Assembly: GCA_030682175.1 (NCBI GenBank)
Contig: JAUXOM010000015.1
Coordinates: 1-49,901, forward strand
Direction of reading: 5' to 3'
Origin: Rhodocyclaceae bacterium
GTDB lineage: Bacteria; Pseudomonadota; Gammaproteobacteria; Burkholderiales; Rhodocyclaceae
DNA: 49,901 nucleotides
Each line of letters starts with the position of its first letter. The stretch's first letter is position 1. The translations under genes were made by a program, and so were the position numbers. The notes beneath the pieces were generated by a model. It made no database searches, was not told the DNA's origin, and worked only from the letters and a program-made list of their open reading frames with translations. Below are positions 24,933 to 40,363 of the stretch, piece after piece.

Positions 24933-26375
24933 CTATCGTTGCGGCGTGCCTGCCGACTCGATCTGCAGCACCGGCAGGCGAAAGATCACGCACAACCCCC
25001 CTGCTGGCGCCTCGCCAGCGCTGACTTTGCCGCCATGCGCTTCGATGGCGCGGCGCACGATCGACAGCCCCAGCCCATGCCCGCCCGGGTTGTCGACACC
25101 CCGGCCACGGTAGAAGGGCTCGAAAATGGTTTCCAGTTCGTCTGCCGGCACGCCGCCGCCACTATCGCAAACACACAGCGTGACCCATTTTTGCTCTCCC
25201 CGCTCTCCCCGCTGCGTTGGCGCCGCCTTGCAGACTTCGATCGTCACCGTGGCACCAGCGGGGGTATGCAACACCCCATTGCGCACGACATTTTCGAAGG
25301 CGCTGCGCAGCAGTTCCGGCCGGCCGGCCACGATAATATCGCCGCCGGCTTTCAGCTCGATCGTCTTGCCCTGCTGCGTCGCTTCGAAACGGGTATCGGC
25401 GACAACATCTTCGAGCAGTTCGACGAGATTCACGCAATCGTCGCCCAATTCGGCGGGATCAGCCTCCAGCCGCGACAAGGCCAGGGTTTCGCCGAGAATC
25501 CTGTCGAGGCGACCGACCTCGTGCTCGATGCGGTCGAGCATGCGCCCGGTCTTCTCGGGCGACTGGCGCGCCATTTCCAGCGCCACCTGCATACGCGTCA
25601 GCGGCGAACGCAGCTCATGCGAAACATCGTGCAACAGGCGTGTCTTGCCGTCGATGGTCGCTTGCAGGCGTGCCGCCATCTCGTCAAAGTCGTGGGCCAG
25701 ATCGGCCAGTTCGTCGCTGCGGCGGCCAAGCAGCGGAGCCACGCGGATTTGCAGTTCCCCGCCGGCAAAGCGCTGGCTCGCCTCGTGCAAGTGCCGGATC
25801 GGCCGCAACAGATACCACGCCAGGCCCAATGCAAACAGGAAGCTGGCGAGCGTCATCGCCAGGAACTCGATGCGGGAAGAGTTCGGCGTTTGATAGACGT
25901 GCTGGGTTGGCGGGGTCGCCGGCAGCAAGGCGAGCGGCACGAACAGTACATGGGCGCGGCCGTCATGGTCGGTCACGCGGTGCACGGCATTACTGGGGGT
26001 GACGCCTGCCAGCATCTCCTTTGCCTGGGCCAGGGCCGGCAGCGGCACCATGCGTCCGAGAATGTCGCTGCCCCGTTCCTCATCCACCACCAGCACGGGC
26101 AAGGGACGCCGGCCCGACCATTCGAGGAACAGTTGGCGCGTATCGGCCAAACCATCGTGCTGCAAAATTACGGCGACCAGCATGGTCGCCAGTTCGGCAC
26201 GATAGCCCGTGGAAAGATCCGGCGACTTTTGCATCTCGGCCTGAAACAGCGCGTTGACGACGTAATCGACCGTATAGACGAGGCCGCTGATCGCCAGCCA
26301 CAGGGCCAGAAATATCTTCAGAAACAGCCGGCCGGGCAAGGGAAACCACCAACCCAAAAAACGCGCGTTCTTCAT
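24933..26375 (-). CDS. CpxA-like sensor histidine kinase
   Basis: Inner-membrane kinase, 480 residues. TM1 is at about residues 15-38 (GRLFLKIFLALWLAISGLVY), a periplasmic sensor region follows (about 40-185), and TM2 is SRIEFLAMTLASFLFALGLA. HAMP follows. The phospho-acceptor motif LLHDVSHELRSPLTRMQVAL is very like CpxA. ATP-binding boxes are FENVVRNGVLHTP, CDSGGGVPADELE and GGHGLGLSIVRRAIE. It overlaps the regulator gene by 4 bp. As a CpxA-type sensor it may follow envelope or redox state; position suggests control of the adjacent cytochrome module, but that is inference. Confidence 0.9.
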   Translation of the reverse strand: MKNARFLGWWFPLPGRLFLKIFLALWLAISGLVYTVDYVVNALFQAEMQKSPDLSTGYRAELATMLVAVILQHDGLADTRQLFLEWSGRRPLPVLVVDEERGSDILGRMVPLPALAQAKEMLAGVTPSNAVHRVTDHDGRAHVLFVPLALLPATPPTQHVYQTPNSSRIEFLAMTLASFLFALGLAWYLLRPIRHLHEASQRFAGGELQIRVAPLLGRRSDELADLAHDFDEMAARLQATIDGKTRLLHDVSHELRSPLTRMQVALEMARQSPEKTGRMLDRIEHEVGRLDRILGETLALSRLEADPAELGDDCVNLVELLEDVVADTRFEATQQGKTIELKAGGDIIVAGRPELLRSAFENVVRNGVLHTPAGATVTIEVCKAAPTQRGERGEQKWVTLCVCDSGGGVPADELETIFEPFYRGRGVDNPGGHGLGLSIVRRAIEAHGGKVSAGEAPAGGLCVIFRLPVLQIESAGTPQR

Positions 26376-27082
26376 GCCTCGATTGTTAGCAGGAGATAGC
26401 CCGCACCGTGGATGGTCTGGATCGGCGAACGGCCGTCATCGAGATTGCCGAGCTTGCGCCGCAGATTGCTGATATGCATGTCGAGGCTGCGGTCATAGCG
26501 TACCAGCGACCGGCCGAGGGCACGATTGGCGAGGTCCGACTTGGGCACCACTGCGCCGACGTTTTCGTACAAGGCCGCCAGGATGTTGAACTCGCTGCTG
26601 GTGAGGCTGAGCGCCTTGCCGCGCCAGCGGACCATGCGTTGCGCCGGCAACAGTGACAGCAAGCCTTCATCAACCTGCGGCGCCGGCGCCGCACCGGGCG
26701 GCGCGCGCCGGGAACGCCGCAATACGGCATGCACCCGCGCCGTCAGTTCGCGCGGGTTGCAGGGCTTGGGCAGATAGTCATCGGCACCCAGTTCCAGGCC
26801 GAGAATCCGGTCGAGATCGTCACCGCGGGCTGTTAACATCAGGACCGGCAAATCGGCGTCATCGTGGCGAATCTGCCGCAAGATATTGAGCCCGTTGATA
26901 TCCGGCAGCATGATGTCGAGGATCACCAGGTCTATTTCACCGCTGCGAATCTCCCGCAGTCCGGCCTCCCCGGTGTGTGTCGCCAGCGGACTCAACCCTT
27001 CAGCCGCCAGATACTCGATGAGCAACTGACAAAACGGTTCATCGTCATCGACCAGCAATATGTGCGGCTGTCGTTTGTCCAC
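26372..27082 (-). CDS. CpxR-like response regulator
   Basis: 236 residues from a GTG at 27082, with GGAG ten bases upstream. The receiver domain has ILLVDDDEPFCQLL, phospho-acceptor VILDIMLPDINGL, LMLTARGDD and YLPKPCNPREL. The OmpR/PhoB-type winged helix (about residues 145-235) includes LTSSEFNILAAL and SLDMHISNLRRKLG, ending IQTIHGAGYLL. It is divergent from the multihaem cytochrome operon across 479 bp that contain a perfect 9-bp inverted repeat 106 bp from its start codon. Confidence 0.92.
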   Translation of the reverse strand: MDKRQPHILLVDDDEPFCQLLIEYLAAEGLSPLATHTGEAGLREIRSGEIDLVILDIMLPDINGLNILRQIRHDDADLPVLMLTARGDDLDRILGLELGADDYLPKPCNPRELTARVHAVLRRSRRAPPGAAPAPQVDEGLLSLLPAQRMVRWRGKALSLTSSEFNILAALYENVGAVVPKSDLANRALGRSLVRYDRSLDMHISNLRRKLGNLDDGRSPIQTIHGAGYLLLTIEA

Positions 27083-27561: not shown

Positions 27562-27900
27562 ATGAAACTGAAAAAGACCATCCTGCTGCTGAGCGGTTCC
27601 CTGTTCTTTGCGCTGGCCGGCAGCAGCGTTCATGCCGTGGACGAGGCCGATGCCAAAAAGTTGCTGAAAGACAGCCAGTGCGGCAAGTGCCATGACGAGA
27701 ATCGCAACAAGAAAGGGCCGTCCTTCAAGAAGACTGCCGCTGAATATAAGGGCAAGCCGGACGCCATGGCGAAGATCACCAAGAACCTCACCGAACCCCA
27801 TGAAGTCGAGGTCGAGGGCGAAAAGGTCGAGCACGGCGCGGTCAAGACCCGCGATGCGGCGCGCATCAAGAATCTCGCCGAATGGATTTTGTCCCGCTGA
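27562..27900 (+). CDS. Monohaem c-type cytochrome, probable bis-His type
   Basis: 112-residue periplasmic cytochrome: signal peptide MKLKKTILLLSGSLFFALAG ending at VHA, one haem site CGKCH (residues 40-44). It resembles small class I cytochromes (KKGPSFKKTAAEYKGK; final helix AARIKNLAEWILSR). The usual PMPP loop with the axial Met is missing and KVEHGAVKTRD stands in its place. The same His is kept in the paralogue at 33807, so His91 is the likely sixth ligand. GGAG precedes the ATG at 27562. First gene of the electron-transfer cluster, probably a periplasmic shuttle. Confidence 0.9.
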   Translation: MKLKKTILLLSGSLFFALAGSSVHAVDEADAKKLLKDSQCGKCHDENRNKKGPSFKKTAAEYKGKPDAMAKITKNLTEPHEVEVEGEKVEHGAVKTRDAARIKNLAEWILSR

Positions 27901-27958
27901 GCCCTCGGCAAGGCGGGTATCAAGCAGTCTGTATCAATCTCTTTAAAGGGGAAAATCA

Positions 27959-28825
27959 ATGAAACGTTTTGCAGGAATGCTGGCGATCCTGGTTGGATCG
28001 CTGATGTTCGGCACCGCCCAGGCGGCACCGGCGGCCAAGGGAGCACCGGTCGGCGCCCAATGCGTAAGCTGTCACGAAACCGAAGCCAAGGCCCACATGA
28101 AACAGGCCTACCACGGCGACTGCGTCAGCTGCCACACCACGGCAGTCGAGCACGCCAAGGCCGAGGAAGCACGCGAAAGCGCCACCGGCAAGGACAAGCC
28201 GAAAGCCGTTCTGGCCGGCGCCCCGAAATCCGAACAGTGCCTGAGCTGCCACAAGAACGATGCCAAACACGTGAACTTCGCCTTCTCGGACCACGCCAAG
28301 GCCAACGTGCAGTGCAGCGACTGCCACGGCAACCACTCGCCGAAGATCAAGTCGCTCACGGCGGGCATGCATAAAGCCGGCAAGGAAGCCGCCCTTTGTG
28401 TCAGTTGCCACAAGGACGTCGCGGCCAAGTTCAACCTGCGTTCGCACCACCCGCTGAAAGAAGGCGGCGTGACCTGCAAGGACTGCCACGACCCGCATGG
28501 TGGCCAGCAACTGACGCTGGCGGCAAAGACGCAACAATGCACCCAGTGCCACCAGAACGTGCGCGGCCCGCATGGTTTTGAGCACCCCCCGGCAGTCGAA
28601 GATTGCGCCACCTGCCACAACCCGCACGGCACGCCGAACCGCAAGCTGTTGAACCTCGCCGAACCCATGCTCTGCCTGCAGTGCCATTCGGTGCCGGGCA
28701 ACCGCCATGGCAATACGGGCGCTACCGCCAATGGCCAGACCATCTCGGCGACCGCGTTGCGCAACTGCAGCAGCTGCCACAACGCGCCGCATGGCAGCCA
28801 CATGGACCAGCACCTGCGTTATTGA
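27959..28825 (+). CDS. mtrA: Decahaem periplasmic cytochrome, MtrA/MtoA/PioA/DmsE family
   Basis: 288 residues with a signal peptide (cleavage near AQA-AP) and exactly ten CxxCH motifs, at Cys 35, 55, 94, 119, 147, 173, 194, 216, 239 and 270. This number and length fit the MtrA/MtoA/DmsE family, which threads an outer-membrane barrel and conducts electrons across it. The next gene, 25 bp away, encodes the matching MtrB-type barrel. Members work in metal reduction (MtrA), Fe(II) oxidation (MtoA, PioA) or extracellular DMSO reduction (DmsE); sequence reading cannot tell the direction here. The name marks the family only. Confidence 0.93.
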   Translation: MKRFAGMLAILVGSLMFGTAQAAPAAKGAPVGAQCVSCHETEAKAHMKQAYHGDCVSCHTTAVEHAKAEEARESATGKDKPKAVLAGAPKSEQCLSCHKNDAKHVNFAFSDHAKANVQCSDCHGNHSPKIKSLTAGMHKAGKEAALCVSCHKDVAAKFNLRSHHPLKEGGVTCKDCHDPHGGQQLTLAAKTQQCTQCHQNVRGPHGFEHPPAVEDCATCHNPHGTPNRKLLNLAEPMLCLQCHSVPGNRHGNTGATANGQTISATALRNCSSCHNAPHGSHMDQHLRY

Positions 28826-28850
28826 CCGGTTACGAATTGGGAGATATGAA

Positions 28851-31022
28851 ATGAAAGCAAGCAAAATGAGCAAGTATTTCATTCCCTGCCTGACGGTGCT
28901 CGCAGCATCCATCAGCCAGGCCTATGCATCGGACGAAAGCGCCAATGTCGTATCCGGTGAGGTCACGCCCAAGTTGATCTACTTCAACTACAACGGCGGA
29001 CCCGGCGGCGGTTCGCCCCAGTATCTGCAGGCCTTTGGAAGCGAGCGCGGCTGGTCGGGCAACGACAACTCCGGCTTTTACGCCGATCTCGATGTCAACC
29101 TGAAAATCGGCGACCGCTTCAGCCTGGAGCGCGAAGGCTTCGGCCGCGACAGCCACCGTGGCAATATTCAGGGCGGCAACAGCGATTTAGGTTTCAGCGG
29201 CTACTATGGCCACTATCGCTCAGGCAGCAGTGGCTTGGATTACCTGAACCGGCCGGGTACGGCGAACAATCCGGTGGCAACGGGCTATACGGCATCTGGC
29301 AACGGCGGCTACCTGACCCTGTTCAACGACGATACCGGCGGCGTGACCAGTTACACGGTCGAGCGCACTCGCTATGGTGTCGGCGTCAAGTTCAAGCCCG
29401 ACCTGCTTGGCAAAAACACCAGCCTGTCATTGAACTTCGATGGCTACAAACGTGATGGCAACAAGTTTGCTACCTATGTGTTCGGCAACGGCGACGTTAC
29501 CCCCAACAGCGCTGCCCAAAAGCAGGCCCGCTGGCGCGGTTACAACATGCCGGTCGAAGAAAACATGGGGCGCTTCTCGTTGAACTTCACCACGAATCCC
29601 GGTGGGATGTTCCAGTTCGCCTACGACGGCAGTATCGAGAAGTTCAGAAACCAAGCACGGACGGCGTTAGCAACAGATTTCGAGTCTCAGGTTGAAGCTG
29701 TGGTCGGCCTTACTCTCGCTGCAACTAACGACATGCATTTCGTGCCGGATAGCACCTTGATGACGAACGCCTTCCGTCTCTCCAAGACATACGGAAAAAC
29801 AGCGATTGCGGTCGGCTATGGCATGTCTCGCCTGGATCAGGACTCTTTCTCGAACAATCAAGCCGATCCCAATTCCGGATACAGCAAAGGCAAGATCAGC
29901 ACCGACAACGCCTTCTTCAATGCCAACCATCGCCTGTCTTCTTCAGTTGGAATCGAGGGCTTCGTCAAATATGCCAACCGAGAAAATGATTCATCAGGCG
30001 GTTTTGCTGGCGCAGAAATGCTGGATCGTGAAGTGCGCGATTTGTGGGGGGTGCGCATCAAGGATCTCGAGTCGTTGAACTACGGGTTGGCCGCGACCTT
30101 CAACGGTCTGCCTGCTAAATCATCTGTTACGGTGGGCTGGAAGCATCTGGATACCGATCGTGATCTTCAATACAACACCATCCCGGCTAACGGCAACCTT
30201 GGCGCCTGGCCGACGGTCGTGATGCTGCAAGACAGAAGCAAGTCGGACGAGATCTATTTGCGGTGGAATGCGCGACCGATGAAGGATATGACACTGCGTC
30301 TTACGCCATCATGGGTCAGCGCCAGCAAGACCGGCTATGTGACCGAGGCGGAGGATTCGTTCAACCTGAAGGCTGCCCTGGGTTATGCGCTGACCAAGCA
30401 GGCGCACGTCAATGCCTACTATCATTACAAAGACAAAAAGAACGGCGACCAAAGCTTTACCGATACGACCAAGCCGTCCGGCGGTGTGACTTTCCTGGGC
30501 ACGTCATACCAGCAGAAGGCCGATGACACATTCCACGCGGCGGGCTTGTCTGTGAACCACTCGCCCTCCGAGTGGCTCAACTTCAGCGGCAGTCTTGACT
30601 GGGCGCAAAACGATTTCGAGACCTACTTCTTCGGCACTAACGCGCGTCGGTTTGAACAGACCATCGTATTCGACCCGCGGGGTACGTCCGACTACAAGGT
30701 CGATACCCTGTCGCTGTCGCTCAATACCGACTACCAGCCCACCGATCAGTTGAAGCTGCGGGCGACCTATACCTGGTCGGACACCAGCGGTGATCTGGAC
30801 ACGACGAGCACGGCCACTTTGGGGCTCGGCGCTGGAGGTTATTCCGTCAACGACAAAGTCGACAATACCCTGCACAGCCTGGCCTTTGGTCTGGATTACG
30901 CACTGAAGAACAAGCTGACGCTGAAGGGTGCTTATGTCTACGACCGTTACAAAGACAAGGCATTCAGCAACCTGAACGGCAGCCACCACACCCTGATGAT
31001 GGGCGTCTCTGTCGGCTTCTGA
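28851..31022 (+). CDS. mtrB: MtrB/PioB-family outer-membrane beta-barrel
   Basis: 723 residues. Signal peptide ends near SQAYASDES; the rest alternates polar and hydrophobic residues as amphipathic strands (YGVGVKFKPDLLGKNTSLSL, LKLRATYTWSDTS, LTLKGAYVYDRYKD) and ends in the outer-membrane signature MMGVSVGF with terminal Phe. MtrB-like barrels have about 26 strands and sheath the decahaem cytochrome. The CxxC near the mature N-terminus of Shewanella MtrB is absent; the only Cys is in the signal peptide. ATG at 28851 with GGGAG upstream. A strong terminator follows, so cytochrome, mtrA and mtrB form one unit. Confidence 0.92.
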   Translation: MKASKMSKYFIPCLTVLAASISQAYASDESANVVSGEVTPKLIYFNYNGGPGGGSPQYLQAFGSERGWSGNDNSGFYADLDVNLKIGDRFSLEREGFGRDSHRGNIQGGNSDLGFSGYYGHYRSGSSGLDYLNRPGTANNPVATGYTASGNGGYLTLFNDDTGGVTSYTVERTRYGVGVKFKPDLLGKNTSLSLNFDGYKRDGNKFATYVFGNGDVTPNSAAQKQARWRGYNMPVEENMGRFSLNFTTNPGGMFQFAYDGSIEKFRNQARTALATDFESQVEAVVGLTLAATNDMHFVPDSTLMTNAFRLSKTYGKTAIAVGYGMSRLDQDSFSNNQADPNSGYSKGKISTDNAFFNANHRLSSSVGIEGFVKYANRENDSSGGFAGAEMLDREVRDLWGVRIKDLESLNYGLAATFNGLPAKSSVTVGWKHLDTDRDLQYNTIPANGNLGAWPTVVMLQDRSKSDEIYLRWNARPMKDMTLRLTPSWVSASKTGYVTEAEDSFNLKAALGYALTKQAHVNAYYHYKDKKNGDQSFTDTTKPSGGVTFLGTSYQQKADDTFHAAGLSVNHSPSEWLNFSGSLDWAQNDFETYFFGTNARRFEQTIVFDPRGTSDYKVDTLSLSLNTDYQPTDQLKLRATYTWSDTSGDLDTTSTATLGLGAGGYSVNDKVDNTLHSLAFGLDYALKNKLTLKGAYVYDRYKDKAFSNLNGSHHTLMMGVSVGF

Positions 31023-31033
31023 TTCACTGCCTC

Positions 31034-31075
31034 ACGGCCGCCCCCTCCTCCCGGTGGGGGTGGCCGTTTTTTTTT
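31034..31075 (+). terminator. Rho-independent terminator after mtrB
   Basis: ACGGCCGCCCCC pairs with GGGGGTGGCCGT around TCCTCCCGGT, followed by nine Ts. It splits the cytochrome cluster into two transcription units. Confidence 0.92.
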
Positions 31076-31147
31076 GCGCCCTGCCCAAGCGCATGACCAC
31101 GTCGCCCGACCGGTCGGATGCTTAGCCATCCTCATGGAGTTCTGAAA

Positions 31148-33151
31148 ATGCACACCCCGATTCTTGCCATCCTGCCAAAGCGCTGGATGCTGTTTGCCGC
31201 CTTGTTTCTGATCCTCGCTGCCTTGACGGTGGGAAGCCCGGCTCAGGCTGCACCCGCGGAAAAACTCGACAATGCTTCCTGCCTGAAGTGTCATGAGAAC
31301 AAGCATGACAAGATCAAGGTGCCGGTGGTCATCGACGGTGAAGAGGACGAACGCGAGCTGCGCAGCATCGACAAGCGCAAGTTCGCCAAGAGCGTGCATA
31401 GCCAGATGCAATGCCTGGACTGCCACAAGAACATCGTCGATGCCCGGAAAGACCACCAGCTCGACGCCAACGCCCCGCAAGCCAGCTGCATCGGCTGCCA
31501 CGAAGGCCTGTGGGCCAAGGCGCAGCAGGAAGGCAAGACCAAGGACAAACCCCGCCTCGGCGTCGTCTTCCAGAACATCGAGGCTTACAACAAATCCTTC
31601 CACGCCCGCGAGAACAAGGACATCCCCGGCACCCCGCTCGCCAAGTGCGACGACTGCCACAGTTCGCACGACTTCGACGTGCCGCCGCAGGAAAGCGAAC
31701 GGCGCACCGCCTGGCACAAGTCCATCCCCGAGACCTGTGGCCAGTGCCACGAAGACCAGCTCGACATCTGGGGCGGCTCGGTACATGGCGAAGAGGTCAT
31801 CGACAAGGGCAATCTCAAGGCGGCCGTCTGTACCGACTGCCATAGCGCCCACAGCGTCACCGGTACCTCCGGTGATTCCTTCAAGCTCGCCAGCACCGGC
31901 GACTGCGGCACCTGCCACAAGGAAGAGCTGAAAAGCTTCCACGACACCTACCACGGCCAGGTCTCGCGCCTGGGCTGGGCCTACACCGCGCGCTGCGTGA
32001 GCTGCCATGACAGCCACGGCATCAAGGCCGTCGCAGACCCCCAGTCCAAGGTTCACCCCGACAACCGCCTCAAGACCTGCCAGAGTTGCCATGACGGCAA
32101 GAAACTGCCGCTGGCCACCGGTGGCTTCTCTTCCTTCCACCCGCACGCCAACACCCATGACTTCGAAAAATATCCGGTGATGTACGTCACCTCGAAGTTC
32201 ATGATCTGGCTGCTGGTCGGCGTGTTTGCCTTCTTCTGGTTGCACTCCGGCCTCTGGTACTACCGCGAGTGGCAGGACCGCAAGGCCGGCAAGCACCACC
32301 ACCGCATTGACACCACAGGCCTGAACCTCGACGAAGAGAAAATGTTCGTCGAGCGCTTCCACTGGGGCTGGCGGCTTGCCCACCTGGTCTTCGCCCTATC
32401 CACCATGGCCCTGGTGCTGACCGGTACGACCGCACTGTTCGCCCACAGCGACTGGGCGCCGGTGGTTGCCAAGGCGCTCGGCGGGCCGCAAGTGCTCGGC
32501 ATCATCCACCGGGTAGCGGCGGGCCTGTTCGTCGCCATTTTCATGATCCACCTCATCTACGTGCTGCAGAAACTGTTGCGCGACAAGACCTTCAAGTGGT
32601 TCGGCCCGGATTCGCTGGTGCCGAACTGGAAGGACCTCGATGACATGATCGGCATGTTCAAGTGGTTCCTCGGCAAGGGCGAACGGCCCAAGTTCGAGCG
32701 CTGGGCCTATTACGAGAAGTTCGACTACTGGGCGGTGTTCTGGGGCGTCAACGTGATCGGCTGGAGCGGCTTGATGCTGGCCATCCCGCACGTCACGGCC
32801 GAGTATCTGCCGGGCTGGGTATTCAACGTGGCGACGCTGGTGCATGCGGAAGAAGCCTTCCTGGCGGCGGTGTTCCTCTTCACGGTGCACTTCTTCAACA
32901 ACCACTTCCGCCCCGACAAGCTGCCGCCGCCGGATATCGTGATGTTCACCGGCACGCAGTCGCTGCGCGAGTTCCGCCATGACCATCCGGCGCAGTACCA
33001 GCGTCTGGTGGATTCCGGCGAACTCACGAAGCGCCTGGTCTCGGCCCCCTCGCCGGCAATGAAGAAGGCTTCGGTCGTCCTCGGCCTCCTCCTCATCACC
33101 GTCGGCCTGATGCTGCTGGTGATGATTGGGACCGGGTTCTTCAGCGGCTAA
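31148..33151 (+). CDS. Nonahaem cytochrome c - cytochrome b fusion (CbcL-like)
   Basis: 667 residues. Signal peptide or first TM (residues 12-35) is followed by a periplasmic domain with nine CxxCH sites, at Cys 45, 89, 114, 167, 197, 228, 253, 283 and 311. Then come about six membrane helices (near 351-372, 411-432, 452-472, 535-557, 572-592, 640-665). The b-type region has the His-rich helices of the dihaem Ni-hydrogenase/formate-dehydrogenase cytochrome b family (RFHWGWRLAHLVF, IIHRVAAGLF, IFMIHLIYVL, FTVHFFNNHF). This nine-haem plus dihaem-b layout is that of Geobacter CbcL, an inner-membrane menaquinol oxidase feeding external acceptors. Here it probably links the quinone pool to the MtrAB conduit. 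Confidence 0.88.
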   Translation: MHTPILAILPKRWMLFAALFLILAALTVGSPAQAAPAEKLDNASCLKCHENKHDKIKVPVVIDGEEDERELRSIDKRKFAKSVHSQMQCLDCHKNIVDARKDHQLDANAPQASCIGCHEGLWAKAQQEGKTKDKPRLGVVFQNIEAYNKSFHARENKDIPGTPLAKCDDCHSSHDFDVPPQESERRTAWHKSIPETCGQCHEDQLDIWGGSVHGEEVIDKGNLKAAVCTDCHSAHSVTGTSGDSFKLASTGDCGTCHKEELKSFHDTYHGQVSRLGWAYTARCVSCHDSHGIKAVADPQSKVHPDNRLKTCQSCHDGKKLPLATGGFSSFHPHANTHDFEKYPVMYVTSKFMIWLLVGVFAFFWLHSGLWYYREWQDRKAGKHHHRIDTTGLNLDEEKMFVERFHWGWRLAHLVFALSTMALVLTGTTALFAHSDWAPVVAKALGGPQVLGIIHRVAAGLFVAIFMIHLIYVLQKLLRDKTFKWFGPDSLVPNWKDLDDMIGMFKWFLGKGERPKFERWAYYEKFDYWAVFWGVNVIGWSGLMLAIPHVTAEYLPGWVFNVATLVHAEEAFLAAVFLFTVHFFNNHFRPDKLPPPDIVMFTGTQSLREFRHDHPAQYQRLVDSGELTKRLVSAPSPAMKKASVVLGLLLITVGLMLLVMIGTGFFSG

Positions 33152-33168
33152 CAACAAGGAGCTTGCCC

Positions 33169-33777
33169 ATGATGACTGCCTTTCGTATCACGTTTGCCGT
33201 GCTGCTGGGGTTGGGCCTGGCCTCACCCGTAGCAGCGTTGGCGGTGCCCCCGCATGTCAGCAAGATCATCATCGAGCGATGCGGGCTATGTCATGGGCCG
33301 GAAGGAGAGAGCGCCAGCCGCATTTACCCGCGGCTGGCGGCCCAACACCCGAGCTATATGCGCAAGCAGTTGGCGGATTTCCGTGACGGCCGCCGCAAAA
33401 GCGAGGTGATGGGCGAGATGAGCAAGGATCTCAAGGACGGGGACATTGCCGTTCTGGGCGACTTCTACGCCAGTAAACCGGCGGCGGCGAGCCAGCCGGG
33501 CGACCCCGATCTGGCGGCGGTCGGCAGGTACATTTATCACAAGGGCAATACTTACTCCGGCGTTCCATCCTGCGCATCCTGCCATGGCGCGCAAGGTCTC
33601 GGGACCGAGCAATTGCCGCGCCTGGCCGGCCAGCATCCGCGCTATCTGGAATCCCAGTTGCAGGAATTCAACCAACGGGCGCGCACCAACGACAACGCCA
33701 TCATGCACTCGATCGCCGCCAAGCTGACGGAGTTGGAAACCCGCGCCGTCACAGTTTATATCGGCAGCCTGCAGTAA
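33169..33777 (+). CDS. Dihaem cytochrome c4
   Basis: 202 residues: signal peptide to about residue 25 and two class I haem domains with CGLCHG (Cys38) and CASCHG (Cys135). Each is followed by the c4-typical PRLAAQHPSYMRKQL and PRLAGQHPRYLESQL repeats. Axial Met candidates are in EVMGEMSKDL and NAIMHSIAAKL. ATG at 33169 with AAGGAG seven bases upstream, 18 bp after the cytochrome b fusion, so same operon. Cytochrome c4 usually shuttles electrons to terminal oxidases; here it could join the module to aerobic or nitrate respiration. Confidence 0.93.
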   Translation: MMTAFRITFAVLLGLGLASPVAALAVPPHVSKIIIERCGLCHGPEGESASRIYPRLAAQHPSYMRKQLADFRDGRRKSEVMGEMSKDLKDGDIAVLGDFYASKPAAASQPGDPDLAAVGRYIYHKGNTYSGVPSCASCHGAQGLGTEQLPRLAGQHPRYLESQLQEFNQRARTNDNAIMHSIAAKLTELETRAVTVYIGSLQ

Positions 33778-33806
33778 TCCCTTTTCTCGACATCAGGAGA
33801 CTCTAC

Positions 33807-34136
33807 ATGCGCCATTTATCGATTCCCGCTTGCCTCGCGGCGCTTGCGCTGCAGACTACGCCGGCCCTGGCCGCCGATGAAGCAGATGCCATGACGCTAC
33901 TCAAGGATAGCCGCTGCACCAAGTGTCATGATGTCGCGAAACAGAAAGCCGGCCCGCCGTTCGTCAAAATCGCCGCCAAGTACCAGGGAGATGCGGATGC
34001 CAAGGCCAAGCTGACCCGCCACGTCACCGTCGCCAGTGAAGTGGAGATCGACGGCGAGAAGGAACCGCATGGCATCGTCAAAACCCGCGATGCCGCGCGG
34101 ATCGAGAACCTGATCGGCTGGATTCTGACGCGCTAG
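33807..34136 (+). CDS. Monohaem c-type cytochrome, paralogue of 27562
   Basis: 109 residues: signal peptide to about ALAADE, haem site CTKCH (residues 37-41), then KIAAKYQGD and VEIDGEKEPHGIVKTRDAAR before the final helix NLIGWILTR. It aligns along its whole length with the first cytochrome of the cluster. After the haem site there is no methionine at all, so the canonical axial Met is impossible; the conserved His88 (H91 in the paralogue) is the best ligand candidate. It lies 29 bp behind cytochrome c4 with AGGAG before the ATG. Confidence 0.9.
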   Translation: MRHLSIPACLAALALQTTPALAADEADAMTLLKDSRCTKCHDVAKQKAGPPFVKIAAKYQGDADAKAKLTRHVTVASEVEIDGEKEPHGIVKTRDAARIENLIGWILTR

Positions 34137-34249: not shown

Positions 34250-34405
34250 ATCGGACTATCCGTACATCGCCCTGCTGTGCGGATTGTCCGATCCGGCACG
34301 ATTTGGCGCGCAAGCGGCCCGGATGGCCTGAACCGCGACTGGCGACGAAGCCGGCAAAACGAATGTACCGACGGGCCCGTATTGGGCGACGTTGAAAATG
34401 ACGAT

Positions 34406-34430
34406 GGGGACACAGTCGAAACTGTGCCCC
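34406..34430. terminator. Hairpin downstream of the tmRNA coding piece
   Basis: GGGG-A-CACAGT pairs with ACTGTG-CCCC around a CGAA loop, with one bulged A. Read on the minus strand it lies past the tmRNA tag region and could terminate or protect that RNA. It has no strong T-run. Confidence 0.5.
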
Positions 34431-34439
34431 CACCGGCTT

Positions 34440-34720
34440 TTCTTTGGTAACAAGGCTCAAGCAGCCTCGGCAAAGGCCTTAAGCGGCGATTGCGAAACGC
34501 TCATCGTTGGCGTTTAGAGATTTGCTTCATTAACGTCGATCGCCTGACGGGTTGCCTGCTCACTTTTGTTCGCCCTGTCGAAGCCAGTGCACCCCCACCC
34601 AAAAATACCCTGATGCTCAACTCGATACGCTTGGGTGGAGGTGGGCGGAATCGAACCGCCGTCCAGAACGCCTCCAGATTGCCGGAGTTACAACCATGCC
34701 CATATTATGGGGTCTTACAG
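34440..34720 (-). ncRNA. ssrA: Permuted (two-piece) tmRNA gene
   Basis: Rescues stalled ribosomes with SmpB. Reading the minus strand, the acceptor piece comes first. Its T-arm GGCGG-TTCGATT-CCGCC is followed by the acceptor strand CACCTCC and ACC (to about 34634). After a 37-nt spacer the coding piece starts at 34596 with GGGGGTGCACTGGCTTCGAC. GGGGGTG pairs fully with CACCTCC (one G-U), so the pieces rebuild one tRNA-like domain in permuted order. The tag frame 34511-34479 reads GCC AAC GAT GAG CGT TTC GCA ATC GCC GCT TAA, giving ANDERFAIAA. CCA is not encoded exactly (ACCC). Outer ends are approximate. Permuted forms are known in alphaproteobacteria, some cyanobacteria and some betaproteobacteria. 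Confidence 0.93.
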
Positions 34721-34951
34721 CATGAGTTTCAAGACCTGATGTGGACCTGATGTGATCTCAGGGGGCCGCGTGGAGGTCGGCGCTGCCGTCAAGGCGCTGT
34801 TGCAGGACAGGGGGTGCGCCAGCCAGCCATCATCCAGGCGATCCTGGCGGGCCAGCAAACCAGGTGATGTGCCTGCCGTGGTTCCTGCGGAACCCGCTGC
34901 CGACCGATTAGATAGCGCAGCGGGCCCGGAGACTATCCGGGCCGTTCAATT

Positions 34952-35027
<76 letters not shown>

Positions 35028-35162: not shown

Positions 35163-36065
35163 TTACTTGCCGGCGATCTTTTCCAGCTTTTCGGCGCGAA
35201 TCAATTGGCCGTCGAGACCCGCTTCCTTGATCGAACCACCGTAGGCCACATTCAGCAGCTGGGTGTAGTAGACGACGGGCATGTTGAACTTGGTGCCCTT
35301 CTTCTTGTTGATCTCGGATTGATAGATTTCGACGTTGGCCTGGCACAGAGGACAAGGCGTGACGATCAGGTCGGCGCCATGATCGTAGGCGGAGCCGACA
35401 ATGTCCTGAATCAGTGCTTGCGCCTTATCGGGCTCGGAGAAGGCCAGCGCGCCACCGCAACAGGTGACCTTCTGATCGTAGGGCACAGCTTCGGCGCCAC
35501 AGGTTTCGATCATCTTGTCGAGGTATTGCGGGTTCTCAAAAGACTCGCCGGCAATGCCGTACGGGCGATTGGCCTGACAGCCGACATAACCGGCGATCTT
35601 GACGCCGTCCAGCGGCTTGACGACCGGCGCTTTCATGCCTGCGTAGCCGATGTCTTCGATCAGCACTTCGGTGAAGTGGCGCGACTTCGTGTTGAAGTCG
35701 GTGCGAAGCTTCAGGGAAACTTCCTTGAGCGCTTCATTGGCTTCTGCCATCAGGCTCGACGAGTGCTGCAAACGCTCGGTGGCTTCCCGGTTGGCCAGCC
35801 AGCAGGCGGGGCACCCGGAGACGATGTCCTGGCCAGGCAGGTGCTGATCGCTGAGGGCCAGATTACGGGCGCCCATGACGATGCGCGGCAACTCGCCACC
35901 TTCGGCATAGCCAATCGAGGCCGCGCAGCAGTTCCAGTCGGGAATTTCATTGAGCTGAATATCGAGCTTGTCGCAGATCACGCCGAAGGAGGTGATGTAG
36001 TTCGCTGCCGACGCGCCTTTTTGCGAGGAGCAGCCGGGGTAGAACGCGTATTGTTTCTTCGTCAT
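35163..36065 (-). CDS. hdrB: HdrB-like heterodisulfide reductase subunit
   Basis: 300-residue cytoplasmic protein with two CCG domains, which in HdrB bind non-cubane [4Fe-4S] clusters. The first set is C12, C46-C47, C85, C88 (YPGCSSQKG, DWNCCAAS, SGCPACW). The second is C163, C202-C203, C238, C241 (VGCQANRPYG, TCCGGALAF, TPCPLC). It is the last gene of the qmoA-qmoB-hdrC-hdrB operon, 16 bp after hdrC. In this layout HdrBC takes the place of the membrane subunit QmoC, so the complex should be soluble. The natural disulfide or other electron partner is unknown. Confidence 0.92.
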   Translation of the reverse strand: MTKKQYAFYPGCSSQKGASAANYITSFGVICDKLDIQLNEIPDWNCCAASIGYAEGGELPRIVMGARNLALSDQHLPGQDIVSGCPACWLANREATERLQHSSSLMAEANEALKEVSLKLRTDFNTKSRHFTEVLIEDIGYAGMKAPVVKPLDGVKIAGYVGCQANRPYGIAGESFENPQYLDKMIETCGAEAVPYDQKVTCCGGALAFSEPDKAQALIQDIVGSAYDHGADLIVTPCPLCQANVEIYQSEINKKKGTKFNMPVVYYTQLLNVAYGGSIKEAGLDGQLIRAEKLEKIAGK

Positions 36066-36081
36066 ATTTCAGGCTCTCCTG

Positions 36082-36708
36082 TCAGGCCAAGCCGCGGCGG
36101 CGATCTTCAATCTCGCGCGCCTTGGCGATCATTTTGTGGATTCCGCTGGTGTCCTTGCAGGTGTGGCCGCTGATGATCTCCATCGGGTTGAGGCGCCCGG
36201 CTTTCACCAGGCCCAGACCGACGCCTTGCATGGCCAGGGCATTTTTTACGCCCTGCACGAAGCCATCCCGGAAATACATGGCCAGGGAGAACTTGAGCTC
36301 GTTGACACGGCCATATTTGAGCGCGCTTTCCCAGAACAGCTTGGCGATTACCTGGTTCGGCTGGCCCTTGGGGGACAAGCCGAGGCGATAGGCATAGTTG
36401 GCCAGGCCGTGCATGATGTGGGTGATCGGCAGTTCGCGCGGGCAGCGCACCATGCAGTTGTAGCAGGAGGTGCACATCCACATCGAGTCGGACTTCAGGA
36501 CTTCCTCGCGCTTGCCGGCGCGAATCATCATGAAAATCTTCTGCGGTGAATGTTCCCAGTGCGGGCCAAACGGGCAGGAGCCGGCACAAACGCCGCACTG
36601 CATGCACATCTTGACCCAATGGCCTTCCTCGACAGTAGCTTCAACCTCCTTGAGGAAGTTGTTTCTGTACTTCGCGACGGCAGTTTCGTTTGCGGTGGTC
36701 ATCGTCAT
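36082..36708 (-). CDS. hdrC: HdrC-like ferredoxin subunit
   Basis: 208 residues with two classical [4Fe-4S] motifs: C35-C38-C41-C45 (CMQCGVCAGSCPFGP) and C79-C82-C85-C89 (CTSCYNCMVRCPREL). The C-terminal half is helical with no membrane segments, so this is HdrC rather than the HdrC-HdrE fusion QmoC. It relays electrons between the flavin subunits and HdrB. ATG at 36708 lies 10 bp after the qmoB stop. Confidence 0.92.
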   Translation of the reverse strand: MTMTTANETAVAKYRNNFLKEVEATVEEGHWVKMCMQCGVCAGSCPFGPHWEHSPQKIFMMIRAGKREEVLKSDSMWMCTSCYNCMVRCPRELPITHIMHGLANYAYRLGLSPKGQPNQVIAKLFWESALKYGRVNELKFSLAMYFRDGFVQGVKNALAMQGVGLGLVKAGRLNPMEIISGHTCKDTSGIHKMIAKAREIEDRRRGLA

Positions 36709-36718
36709 GCGCTCCTTA

Positions 36719-38968
36719 TTAACCGAAACCCTTCATTGGCGACGGCCCCATCTCGACGAGCTGTGCGACATATTCGTTGATCAGCCCGGCGACGCGCGCG
36801 CCATCGGTAATGGCGATCTCGTAGGTCTGCATCCGCTCCGGCTCCAGACCCATGCCCTTCAGGGTATCGCCGATCTTGCTGAGGCGATAGTAGGCCATCT
36901 CGGAACCCTTGACGAAGTGGCACTGGTAGTTCTCGCCCTTCTGGCAGCCCATCATCATCACGCCGTCGTAGCCGGCGCCGAGTGCGTCGGTGATCCAGAT
37001 GGTATTGACCGAGCCCAGGCAGCGCACCGGGATCACCCGCACGAAGGCTGAATAGGTCAGGCGCTGCATGCCCGCCATGTCGAGCGCCGGGTAAGCGTCG
37101 TTTTCACAGGCCAGGATCAGGATACGTGGCTTTTCTTCGTCCTCGTCGGGGACGTTGACGGCCTTGACCTGCATGCCGACGGTGTCGCAGGAGTAGTTTT
37201 CGAAGGAGATGACACGCACCGGGCAGGCGCCCATGCAGGTACCGCAACGGCGGCAACGCTCTTCATTGAACAGCGGGAAACGCCGCTCGTCCTCGTCGAT
37301 GGCGCCGAACGGGCATTCCACCGTGCAGCGCTTGCACTGGGTGCAACCTTCGAGACGGGCGGTCGGGAACGACAGATCCCAGGCGCGCGGATGGGCGGCA
37401 CGGCCCAGCGCGGCATTTTCAGCCGCCTGGATCGCCTTCATGGTCGCGCCAACCGCGTCTTCGGTGGCTTGATGCATGTCCATCGGGCGGCGCATCGGGC
37501 CGGCGGCGTAGATGCCGGTCCGCCGCGTTTCGTACGGGAAGCAGATGAAGTGCGAATCCGCAAAGCCATACTTGAGCTGTGGAATGTCCGGACCCTGCCG
37601 ATAATTCATGTTCAGCACGGAGATCTTCTGCAGGGCCGTTTTCTTCTCTTTCGCGGCCTCGTCACCGTTATCCGCAGCGGCGACAGTGGCGGTCCAATCG
37701 TCGAGCTCGACGCCCGCGTTCGGCACCTGGCCGGTGGCGAGCACCACCAGATCGGCGGGGATGGTGTTTTCCTCGTCGAGGATCAGGTCCTTGAAGGTCA
37801 CACTGCAACTTTCACCACCGGTTACCTTGGAAGTCTTGCCCTTGGTGAAGGTCACACCCTTGGTCTGGGCACTGCGGTAAAAATCCTCGCCCATGCCGGG
37901 AACGCGCAGGTCATCGAAAATGATAGCGGTGTCGATATCCGGGTTCTGATCCTTGAAGTAGGTCGCCTGCTTGATGCTCGTGCCACAGCAGTGACCGGAG
38001 CAGTAGGGCAGGTGCGTACCGGAATCATCACGCTGGCCGGCGCACTGCACGAACACCACGGATTTGACTTCCTTGCCGTCGGCGCGCTTGATCGGCCCGC
38101 CGTTGGCGGCCTTCGCCAAGGCTTCGAGGCCGGCCTGGTCGACGACGTTCGGCTGGCCGCCGCCCAGTTCTGGCAGCTTGGTGATGTCGTAGGTGCTGAA
38201 ACCGGAAGCCTGAACGATGGCGCCGCAGAGTTCCTCGCTGATGCTGCCTGATTCCTGAGCGATCTTGATGGCGAAACGGCCGGGCGCGCCGGCAGTCTCG
38301 GCAACTGTCGAATTCAGATAGACCTTGATCTTCGGATTGGCGGATACCTGCGCCGCCAGTTCCGTCGCACCGGTCGGCTGGGCATCGGCGTGGGGCGCAT
38401 TGAAGGGCATGCGCTTCCACATCTGGTTGGCAAAACCACCCAGGGCGCCGGTTTTTTCAACGAGGACCACTTCGTAGCCGGCGTCGGCCGCTGCCTGCGC
38501 GGCCGTCATACCGGACATGCCGCCACCGACAACCAGGATCTTCTTGCTCGACGATTCTTTCTTGTTGCCGCCGGGGAGGATCAATTTCTTGACTTCGGCG
38601 CAGCCCATGCGGACGTAGTCCTCGGCCATTTCCTGACGAACCTCGTCATGGTCGGCGCCCTCGGCGACGATCCAGGTCACGCCTTCACGCAGGTTGGCGC
38701 GCGCGACGGCGACGGTCGGGAAGGTGAAGGCTTCGGCCTTGGCGCGACGCGAGCAGGCGGCGATGCACAGGTGGGTCACGCCGTCGTTGGCGATGTCGTC
38801 CTGAATCATCTTCACGCCTTCGGCGTTGCAGAGGAAGGGGTGCGTCTTGATGACCGCCATCTTGCCTTCGGTCTTGGCGACTTTCTCGAGGCCGGCGATT
38901 TTCAGGACATCGCCCAGGCCGCAGCCGGAGCAGATGTAAGCGGCAAATTTATTGGCCGGTGCGTTCAT
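36719..38968 (-). CDS. qmoB: QmoB-like HdrA-MvhD fusion flavoprotein
   Basis: 749 residues. An N-terminal Cys-containing region (YICSGCGLGD, LCIAACSRRAKAEAF) precedes an FAD-binding Rossmann motif at about 144-175 (ILVVGGGMSGMTAAQAAADA). HdrA-type motifs follow (FVQCAGQRDDSGTHLPYCSG). Two ferredoxin clusters lie at about 539-590 (CTQCKRCTVECPFG, CRRCGTCMGACPV). An MvhD/FlpD-like domain makes up about 606-749 (RCLGSVNTIWITDAL, MMMGCQKGENYQCHFVKG). HdrA plus MvhD in one chain defines QmoB. It shares an ATGA overlap with qmoA. Confidence 0.93.
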   Translation of the reverse strand: MNAPANKFAAYICSGCGLGDVLKIAGLEKVAKTEGKMAVIKTHPFLCNAEGVKMIQDDIANDGVTHLCIAACSRRAKAEAFTFPTVAVARANLREGVTWIVAEGADHDEVRQEMAEDYVRMGCAEVKKLILPGGNKKESSSKKILVVGGGMSGMTAAQAAADAGYEVVLVEKTGALGGFANQMWKRMPFNAPHADAQPTGATELAAQVSANPKIKVYLNSTVAETAGAPGRFAIKIAQESGSISEELCGAIVQASGFSTYDITKLPELGGGQPNVVDQAGLEALAKAANGGPIKRADGKEVKSVVFVQCAGQRDDSGTHLPYCSGHCCGTSIKQATYFKDQNPDIDTAIIFDDLRVPGMGEDFYRSAQTKGVTFTKGKTSKVTGGESCSVTFKDLILDEENTIPADLVVLATGQVPNAGVELDDWTATVAAADNGDEAAKEKKTALQKISVLNMNYRQGPDIPQLKYGFADSHFICFPYETRRTGIYAAGPMRRPMDMHQATEDAVGATMKAIQAAENAALGRAAHPRAWDLSFPTARLEGCTQCKRCTVECPFGAIDEDERRFPLFNEERCRRCGTCMGACPVRVISFENYSCDTVGMQVKAVNVPDEDEEKPRILILACENDAYPALDMAGMQRLTYSAFVRVIPVRCLGSVNTIWITDALGAGYDGVMMMGCQKGENYQCHFVKGSEMAYYRLSKIGDTLKGMGLEPERMQTYEIAITDGARVAGLINEYVAQLVEMGPSPMKGFG

Positions 38969-40248
38969 GCGGCCTCCGTGGATGCAGTTTTGTGAATGAC
39001 TTGGATAGAGCGCATGGCGGCTGCCGTTGCGCTCTGAACGGCGCGATTGACATCGAGCGGACTGGCCGCGCTACCGGCGCCGAACATGCCGCCCGACTTC
39101 GAGCCCTCAATGAAATTCGAGGAGTCGAGCACGATGTCCTCGGGCAACTTGACGCCTACGACTTCGGGCTCCATGCCGACCGCCAGAACGACCAGATCAT
39201 GCTCGGTAGCGTAGCGGTGGTAACCCTCGGTATCGACGCCGTGGAGGATCGGGTTGTCGTTCGCCTCATTGAGCGCGACGCGCGCCACCTTGGACTTGAC
39301 GAAGCTGACGTTCGGATCCTTCTGCACGTTCTGGTAGAAGTCTTCCAGACGATCGATGACGCGGATGTCGATGTAATAGACCGTCGACTTCGCTTCGGCA
39401 TTGGCTTCGCGCACATACTGGGTGTGCTTCAGGGTAGCCATGCAGCAGATGCGCGAGCAGTGACGCAGGTGATTCTCGTCGCGCGAGCCGGCGCACTGGA
39501 TGAAGGCGATGTTCTTGGCCTCCTTGCCATCGCCCGGACGCAGGATTTTGCCGCCGGTCGGGCCCTGCGGATCGCAAAGCCGCTCGAATTCGAGGCTGGT
39601 GATGACGTTGGCGAAGCGATCGTAGCCGTAGGGCTGAATCTTGTTCGCATCATACGGACGCCAACCAGTCGCCCAGACCACGCTGCCGACCTTGAGCTCG
39701 AGGGTTTCTTCCTGCATGCCGAGATCGACCGCGCCGAATTTGCAGGCGGCCTTGGCGGCCTCGCCTTCGGGCGTGCCAACGATGGACGGGTCGATGACGT
39801 AGCGCTGCGGATAGGCCATGCCGTGCGGCAGGTAGGCCGCCTTGACTTTGTCGAGTCCGTAGTTCGCCACGTTGGGCACTTCGGCGGTTACCGCCTTGCC
39901 GCAATCGCCGCAGGCCGTGCAGCTCTCGTTGATGTAGCGCGGCTGGACCTTCAGGGTGACGTTGTAATCGCCGCGACTGCCGGTTACGGCGGACACCTCG
40001 GTCATGGTCATCACGCGCACATTGGGGTTGCCGCGGAGACGCCTCAGGTTGATTTCCAGCCCGCAGGTGGGAAAGCACATCTTGGGGAAATAGCGGTAAA
40101 GCATGGAAGTACGGCCGCCCAGCGTGGGGGATTTTTCGACCAGTATTACCTGCTTGCCACACTCGGCTGCCTCGAGGGCCGCCGTCATGCCGGCGATACC
40201 GCCGCCGACGACCAGAATGGTCTGGTTGGTTGCGATTGAAGCCGTCAT
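38965..40248 (-). CDS. qmoA: QmoA-like HdrA flavoprotein
   Basis: 427 residues from the ATG at 40248, which has GGAGG upstream; a longer reading has no such support. FAD motif at the start (ILVVGGGIAGMTAALEAAEC), then FPTCGLEINLRRLRGNP, a CTACGDC Fe-S motif, IQCAGSRDENHLRHCSRICC and the late FAD segment MFGAGSAASPLDVNRAVQSA. Shorter than methanogen HdrA, as expected for QmoA. First gene of the operon. Qmo complexes exchange electrons with APS reductase in sulfur metabolism; no aprBA or sat gene is in the window, so the redox partner is open. Confidence 0.92.
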   Translation of the reverse strand: MTASIATNQTILVVGGGIAGMTAALEAAECGKQVILVEKSPTLGGRTSMLYRYFPKMCFPTCGLEINLRRLRGNPNVRVMTMTEVSAVTGSRGDYNVTLKVQPRYINESCTACGDCGKAVTAEVPNVANYGLDKVKAAYLPHGMAYPQRYVIDPSIVGTPEGEAAKAACKFGAVDLGMQEETLELKVGSVVWATGWRPYDANKIQPYGYDRFANVITSLEFERLCDPQGPTGGKILRPGDGKEAKNIAFIQCAGSRDENHLRHCSRICCMATLKHTQYVREANAEAKSTVYYIDIRVIDRLEDFYQNVQKDPNVSFVKSKVARVALNEANDNPILHGVDTEGYHRYATEHDLVVLAVGMEPEVVGVKLPEDIVLDSSNFIEGSKSGGMFGAGSAASPLDVNRAVQSATAAAMRSIQVIHKTASTEAA

Positions 40249-40363
40249 CAAGCCTCCATGGAGTTGTGCTACCGAAACATAATCCCAGAACCGGCCTGCA
40301 CCCCGTAAAACGGGGGCCATGCCACTACTGGCCGCTACTGAATTGGTGCGAGATTTTAACTGC

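Follow-up and report, generated by a model that had tools for sequence, protein, structure and literature searches.

How electrons might pass between the quinone pool and the outside of the cell in a Rhodocyclaceae bacterium is the question raised by positions 27562–34136 of the window, by which we mean the whole stretch of 49,901 nucleotides analysed (contig JAUXOM010000015.1, positions 1 to 49,901 of the forward strand; GenBank assembly GCA_030682175.1, our G000, with 153 contigs, completeness 99.74 and contamination 4.45). Six consecutive, intact genes lie there on the plus strand, separated by 58, 25, 125, 11 and 29 bases and carrying, in order, 1, 10, 0, 9, 2 and 1 CxxCH haem motifs, the gene with none encoding a beta-barrel. 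Coordinates, order and haem counts were rechecked, and the preliminary description, which had reported 1+10+9+2+1 haem sites and an MtrB-type barrel, held up on the recount and on the Pfam match of the barrel given below. Composition shuffles (1000 each) gave a mean of 0.12 motifs and a maximum of 2 for the decahaem protein and a mean of 0.03 and a maximum of 1 for the nonahaem fusion, and because of these maxima a chance origin of the two counts is excluded. The haem proteins probably wire the cell to electron sources or sinks outside it, and we think it likely that the locus as a whole is explained by an Mto-type extracellular electron transfer module, with a conduit, shuttles, MtoC exchanging electrons with quinone, a replaced quinone partner and uptake as the preferred direction. 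Its inner-membrane design is already known as MtoC; what is new is a divergent conduit and an apparent exchange of quinone partner.

The conduit genes are decaA (27959..28825), for an MtrA-like decahaem cytochrome c, and barB (28851..31022), for a divergent MtrB-like outer-membrane beta-barrel of 723 amino acids. Despite its ten haems, DecaA misses the cut-off of the NCBIfam MtrA model (TIGR03508, 182 bits vs 192.2); by sequence it matches chain A of PDB 6r2q with E 4.1e-36, a chain that we take to be MtrA and that the database copy labels cystathionine beta-synthase. BarB passes the Pfam model MtrB_PioB (PF11854, 62.9 bits, cut-off 23), had no match to NCBIfam MtrB (TIGR03509) at E 0.001, and retrieved nothing at E 1 in a PDB sequence search, either alone or as a six-sequence profile. 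Its AlphaFold model is of low confidence (mean pLDDT 51) and found 6r2q_B as the best PDB match (E 6.7e-15, TM 0.50/0.55), with TonB-dependent receptors ranking behind (7e-10); the DecaA model (pLDDT 35.5) was not used. A 26-strand barrel is stated for PioB and MtoB (PMC10654088). The pair resembles Shewanella MtrAB (6r2q), then, in sequence for chain A and in predicted fold for chain B, whereas of the other Shewanella Mtr components no MtrC passes the cut-off in this genome and no CymA-type gene is in the cluster.

The decahaem and barrel were also considered as MtoAB, a reading ruled out by the missed curated cut-offs, a separate clade and the closer match of MtoC-side decahaems to another pair in the same genome. 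That pair (C7; L038 6982–10221) is MtoAB-like, lies beside two-component genes and passes both models (decahaem TIGR03508 259.6, cut-off 192.2; barrel TIGR03509 313.9, cut-off 240.05), and no further multihaem gene, of NapC type or otherwise, was seen near it among the frames listed for a 32 kb stretch. Our order sample held 399 genomes (398 besides the window's own) and our class sample 369 (368 besides its own). At E 1e-8 the barrel was found only in G145 among the other order genomes and in 0/368 of the other class genomes. The decahaem search at E 1e-15 matched 44 of the 399 order genomes, with identity above 50% in the own genome and G145 (59%) and at 33–44% in the others among the matches listed. 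A tree was built from frames with 9–11 motifs and at least 80 bits (identical tails skipped; 45 rows less four duplicate or cut ones, leaving 41), and in it the six decaA-type sequences stand apart from the 35 others (100/100). Decahaems in the same gene run as an mtoC gene, found in 7/20 genomes, are 42–60% identical to that of C7 and 30–36% to DecaA, and every decahaem matched near other MtoCs scores higher against the C7 protein than against DecaA.

These comparisons bear directly on the idea that the locus is an ordinary mtoDABC operon as in Dechloromonas aromatica or Gallionella. The same functional parts are there (MtoD, decahaem, barrel, MtoC), and both D. aromatica RCB and G. capsiferriformans ES-2 are reported to have mtoC clustered with mtoA, mtoB and mtoD (PMC6295460), but the MtoC-side decahaems side with C7, DecaA and its five relatives form their own clade, and BarB lacks the TIGR03509 match that the C7 barrel has, all of which makes this explanation very improbable. 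Set beside such mtoC-bearing clusters, in a comparison that used mtoAB-bearing relatives from the sampled genomes and not the published sequences, the window shares MtoD, decahaem, barrel and MtoC in one cluster and differs in its decahaem and barrel branch, a hairpin before mtoC, an extra dihaem gene, a second mtoD and a divergent two-component system. The earlier assignment to an MtrAB/MtoAB-type conduit stands on the PF11854 and 6r2q matches as far as the general type goes, and gives way on lineage: this pair is of a different lineage from the MtoAB-like genes that accompany MtoC in the sampled genomes. As judged from these alignments, decaA-barB would be a separate, rare MtrAB-like branch and the unusual part of the module. 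Among literature titles and abstract openings we found no naming of this lineage or of MtoC in such hosts, in a search not made by accession or sequence that does not establish absence from print. Thiobacillus denitrificans is reported without MtoB and ES-1 CymA in an account that leaves the presence of decaA-barB there unaddressed (PMC3753534).

The inner-membrane side of the module is represented by mtoC (31148..33151), which fuses a nonahaem cytochrome c domain to a six-helix cytochrome b. C-terminal to the haem domain are hydrophobic segments at residues 342–371, 410–433, 446–478, 528–547, 558–583 and 636–667, six in number after two overlapping calls were merged. This region is similar to the gamma subunit of formate dehydrogenase (TIGR01583, at 24.9 bits short of the equivalog cut-off of 115.85), and the cytochrome b of MtrH/MtoC is described likewise (PMC4245776). 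The fusion matched 26 of the 399 order genomes at E 1e-20 or better: its own, 20 in which the copy is likewise fused (one has two copies, and in two the N-terminus is short) and 5 whose forms are split or distant; neither the fusion nor the barrel had a match in the plasmid collection. In the two sampled genomes of the same genus, neither decaA nor mtoC had a match at the limits used. Across 23 aligned fused copies, 18 histidines of the haem domain (nine proximal and nine further) are conserved in 22/22 or 23/23 of the rows with a residue there, which would suffice for nine bis-His haems, and H412, H454, H566, H581 and H586 of the membrane part are invariant in 23/23. The motif of haem 5 (31736–31750) is CxxCH in the window, one residue shorter than the CxxxCH seen in 12/23 rows, including the sister copy.

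That sister copy (100/100) lies elsewhere in the genome, at C3 (L037 8601–12640), together with a monohaem protein and a 603-amino-acid cytochrome. The C3 MtoC is 76% identical to the window fusion and has eight CxxCH plus one CxxxCH, and the 603-residue protein, with seven CxxCH and one CxxCK, belongs to the c552 nitrite reductase family (PF02335 174 bits; NF008339 99.7 vs 595) and is the likely partner of the C3 MtoC. By eye, the C3 neighbours look like cytochrome c maturation genes. The two sisters fall within a clade (100/99) whose other members include copies that share a gene run with mtoAB-like genes, in a tree whose rows are relatives from sampled genomes and do not include the named MtoC and CbcL sequences. 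A nitrite reductase family membership of the fusion was ruled out by this tree: the paralogue adjoins an octahaem nitrite-reductase-like gene, yet both copies sit inside the MtoC family, and we read this instead as an exchange of partners. Haem count, histidines, membrane segments and tree together bear out the earlier call of a CbcL-like nonahaem–cytochrome b fusion and support placing the protein with the MtoC/MtrH/CbcL kind, for which a role as quinone oxidoreductase may be proposed. Geobacter sulfurreducens CbcL has the same architecture of a multihaem domain and cytochrome b with proposed quinone exchange; it is reported to be 35.4–35.7% identical to MtrH and two MtoCs (PMC6295460), and the window fusion is likened to it by description. 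Joining this design to an MtrAB-type conduit, the central inference of the preliminary description, is not new, since mtoC beside mtoAB is already published for Betaproteobacteria: mtrH/mtoC cluster with mtrAB/mtoAB in 7 species (PMC6295460), and MtoC of ES-2 is described as a nonahaem protein in place of the tetrahaem CymA of ES-1 (PMC5566968).

The apparent exchange of the quinone partner emerged from the relatives of the barrel: an alignment of two barrel sequences, used to scan named genomes, retrieved five loci (six including the window). A Thiobacillus metagenome-assembled genome (MAG; L069) has an mtoD-like gene, a NapC/NirT tetrahaem gene (TIGR02161 262.1, under cut-off), decaA, barB and a hairpin, with no mtoC downstream. 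A Rhodocyclaceae MAG (L068) has a two-component system, mtoD1 (81%), an mtoD2-like gene (57%), a NapC/NirT tetrahaem gene (PF03264 207.7 bits; TIGR02161 171.9 vs cut-off 310.6), decaA (80%), barB (82%), a hairpin and then mtoC. The remaining loci hold decaA, barB and a dihaem gene in a Gammaproteobacteria MAG (L070) and in L072, whose layout is as in G145, and an mtoD-like gene, decaA, barB and a protein with four motifs in a Sulfuritalea MAG (L071). Three of the six thus form a series, from the conduit with a NapC/CymA-type gene (L069) through both genes (L068) to mtoC alone (window). We infer that a conduit unit ended at a terminator, that mtoC was then added behind it and that the window lineage later lost its clustered tetrahaem gene, an order of events resting on three loci and no rooted test. 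The suggestion that a CbcL-like protein acts instead of CymA thus fits the module itself, which has no NapC/CymA gene, and is tempered by two such genes elsewhere, a NapC-like gene under the cut-offs at C30, in a nap-like cluster (NapA, NapG/H by eye), and a NapC/NirT tetrahaem gene at C93 (L109 3162–5392) with a PdsA-like dihaem gene 1 kb on, a possible partner set for the orphan C7 pair. More broadly, and quite tentatively, decaA-barB could be an unrecognised second lineage of trans-outer-membrane conduit, carried by MAGs assigned to Rhodocyclaceae, Thiobacillus, Sulfuritalea and a gammaproteobacterium and maintained beside differing periplasmic and quinone modules, with relatives in which an MtoC-type quinone enzyme would be seen taking the place of a CymA-type one; MtoC, found also with an octahaem reductase, would then be a plug-in quinone adapter.

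Between barB and mtoC, folding prediction gives a terminator-like hairpin followed by T9 (31029..31075, plus strand; −31 kcal/mol, z −5.3, 0/200 shuffles as low). In a comparison covering the window, L068, L069, L070 and L071 (L072 was not folded), hairpins with T tracts directly follow barB in the first three; L070 has none and L071 has one lacking the T tract. This placement points to at least two transcription units, and what was called a compact module is compact in its consecutive genes and probably not one simple operon. The hairpin also invites the view that decaA-barB stand alone, served by the C93 NapC/NirT protein or by NapC, while MtoC, the dihaem protein and MtoD2 form a unit of their own downstream, unrelated to the conduit and working with a different periplasmic partner. 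In 4/5 of the other loci decaA-barB has no adjoining mtoC, and in 11/20 of the other fused-mtoC genomes no mtoAB-like genes were found in the flanking DNA covered (at most some 8 kb, less where a contig ended); 7 of these 20 have them in the same gene run, one (L051) with a further ten-haem gene between them and MtoC, and 2 have them 3–5 kb off. Against such a division, the order decaA-barB-hairpin-mtoC is common to the window and L068, as is the DNA from hairpin to mtoC, which is unlike the sequence before the C3 mtoC; the window cluster lacks the NapC/NirT gene that adjoins the conduit in both L068 and L069; and no further oxidoreductase frame was seen between mtoD2 and the transfer-messenger RNA (tmRNA) at 34388. 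We consider two unrelated units unlikely.

Three small cytochromes complete the module. The first gene, mtoD1 (27562..27900), encodes a monohaem cytochrome c of the MtoD family that matches PDB 4xxl with E 1.2e-16 and 64 bits over residues 10–111; 9l08, a three-domain c555 construct, gave a lower E but 26 bits per domain. The entry 4xxl is MtoD, and for MtoD of Sideroxydans lithotrophicus ES-1 a haem with bis-His ligation and a potential of +155 mV is described (PMC4412085). The last, mtoD2 (33807..34136), is a second MtoD-like monohaem gene (Pfam Cytochrom_C, 24.6 bits). By eye, a histidine instead of methionine is kept at the distal position in 6/6 monohaems of the decaA clusters, both window proteins included, which may therefore have bis-His ligation. 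Before mtoD2 lies a dihaem c-type cytochrome gene (33163..33777), with ATG 33169, preceded by AAGGAG, as its likelier start; its product reaches 57.2 bits against NCBIfam PdsA, short of the cut-off of 330, and is a PdsA relative only. In the module as we picture it, electrons would cross the outer membrane through DecaA seated inside BarB, a conduit that lacks an MtrC-type cap. In the periplasm they would be shuttled by MtoD1, MtoD2 and the dihaem protein, and MtoC would exchange them with the quinone pool via its nonahaem domain and b haems. S. lithotrophicus ES-1 (MtoA, MtoB, MtoD, CymA/ImoA) shares the MtoD family and a decahaem–barrel conduit, its MtoA/MtoB being likened to ours by description only, and differs in using a tetrahaem NapC/NirT protein where the window has MtoC.

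The usual direction would be uptake, from a donor outside to ubiquinone, a preference we base on signs that the host is an autotroph using ubiquinone: RuBisCO is over its cut-off, menD is not (best 73.7 vs 244.2, with 7/14 controls passing that search), and Hdr/Qmo-like genes are present. ES-1 provides a ubiquinone-only precedent (PMC13390432). The same conduit could run outward, with MtoC oxidising quinol and decaA-barB passing electrons to Fe(III), humics, an electrode or another acceptor outside the cell. The nearest MtoC paralogue, at C3, adjoins the octahaem nitrite-reductase-like gene, implying quinol oxidation, and Rhodoferax ferrireducens, which reduces Fe(III), is described as having MtrH in its mtrABC cluster, in an account that gives no feature separating the directions (PMC6295460). 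A menD under cut-off, perhaps marking a high-potential ubiquinone-only pool, the RuBisCO and Hdr/Qmo-like genes of a suggested lithoautotroph and the lack of an MtrC-type terminal reductase over cut-off speak against outward flow, which we hold to be rather unlikely, though less so than two unrelated units. The stated absence of MtrC/OmcA was upheld genome-wide, with none over cut-off (TIGR03507 best 19.8 bits vs 209.3), and of a CymA plus MtrC set that might claim the conduit only CymA-like genes were found, none of them tied to it. In the genome's DNA there were 450 CxxCH matches (252 + 198) against 178 for a reversed control pattern, identifications being made among about the first 100 matches listed, and Paired_CXXCH gave 10 stretches on 5 contigs. 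On C137 (L039 6549–8126, minus) we noted a nine-haem cytochrome with no cytochrome b match, a C-terminal hydrophobic stretch and a weak likeness to the MtoC haem domain, on C119 (L120 1150–1989) an eight-motif multihaem protein, and on C95 (L117) a doubled-CxxCH protein adjoining a cytochrome b-like frame.

Several points weigh against an Mto-type uptake module with an exchanged quinone partner. The decaA-barB pair adjoins mtoC in only 2/6 loci (window and L068), the L068 mtoC ends at the contig end, and the L069 contig starts 397 bases before its first gene, so that an mtoC upstream is possible there. The predicted hairpin between barB and mtoC speaks against taking their co-expression as given. 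Neighbourhood labels in the MtoC tree are not clearly clustered compared with shuffles, so MtoC may change partners often; the C93 NapC/NirT protein could act in trans for the conduit, and the C7 pair could be a partner of MtoC. The C3 MtoC beside its octahaem neighbour suggests quinol oxidation, the opposite direction, and because of the multihaem genes on C95 and C119 a surface multihaem partner for the conduit is possible. In ES-1, MtoD is reported to have shown no binding to MtoA or to the CymA-like protein ImoA (PMC13390432), so here MtoD1, MtoD2 and the dihaem protein are no more than candidate shuttles. The search for menaquinone synthesis covered menD, and a futalosine menaquinone route or a cyc2 gene may be present; the assembly, in 153 contigs, has 4.45% estimated contamination.

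Divergent from the module on the minus strand are genes for a sensor histidine kinase (24933..26375; HAMP, HisKA and HATPase by Pfam) and an OmpR-type response regulator (26372..27082; Pfam), with 83% and 71% homologues at the same place in L068; this two-component system (24933–27082) is likely the regulator of the module. Directly downstream, also on the minus strand, ARAGORN called a tmRNA (34388–34725), marked with an asterisk that presumably means permuted, and a tRNA-Ala(CGC) (34952–35027); such sites are frequent borders of acquired DNA. Beyond them, again on the minus strand, HdrB/HdrC-like and two HdrA-like genes (35163–40320) match HdrA/B/C models, all under cut-offs, and in our own reading may encode a Qmo of dissimilatory sulfur metabolism.

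The decaA-barB conduit would escape any annotation that depends on the cut-offs of NCBIfam MtrA and MtrB. Direction and quinone choice are described as not settled by sequence alone so far (PMC6295460), and the relatives of this locus are natural pairs for the effect that exchanging CymA for MtoC has on both. If the conduit is real, the range of organisms that may trade electrons with minerals grows, perhaps by sulfur-oxidising autotrophs in this case.

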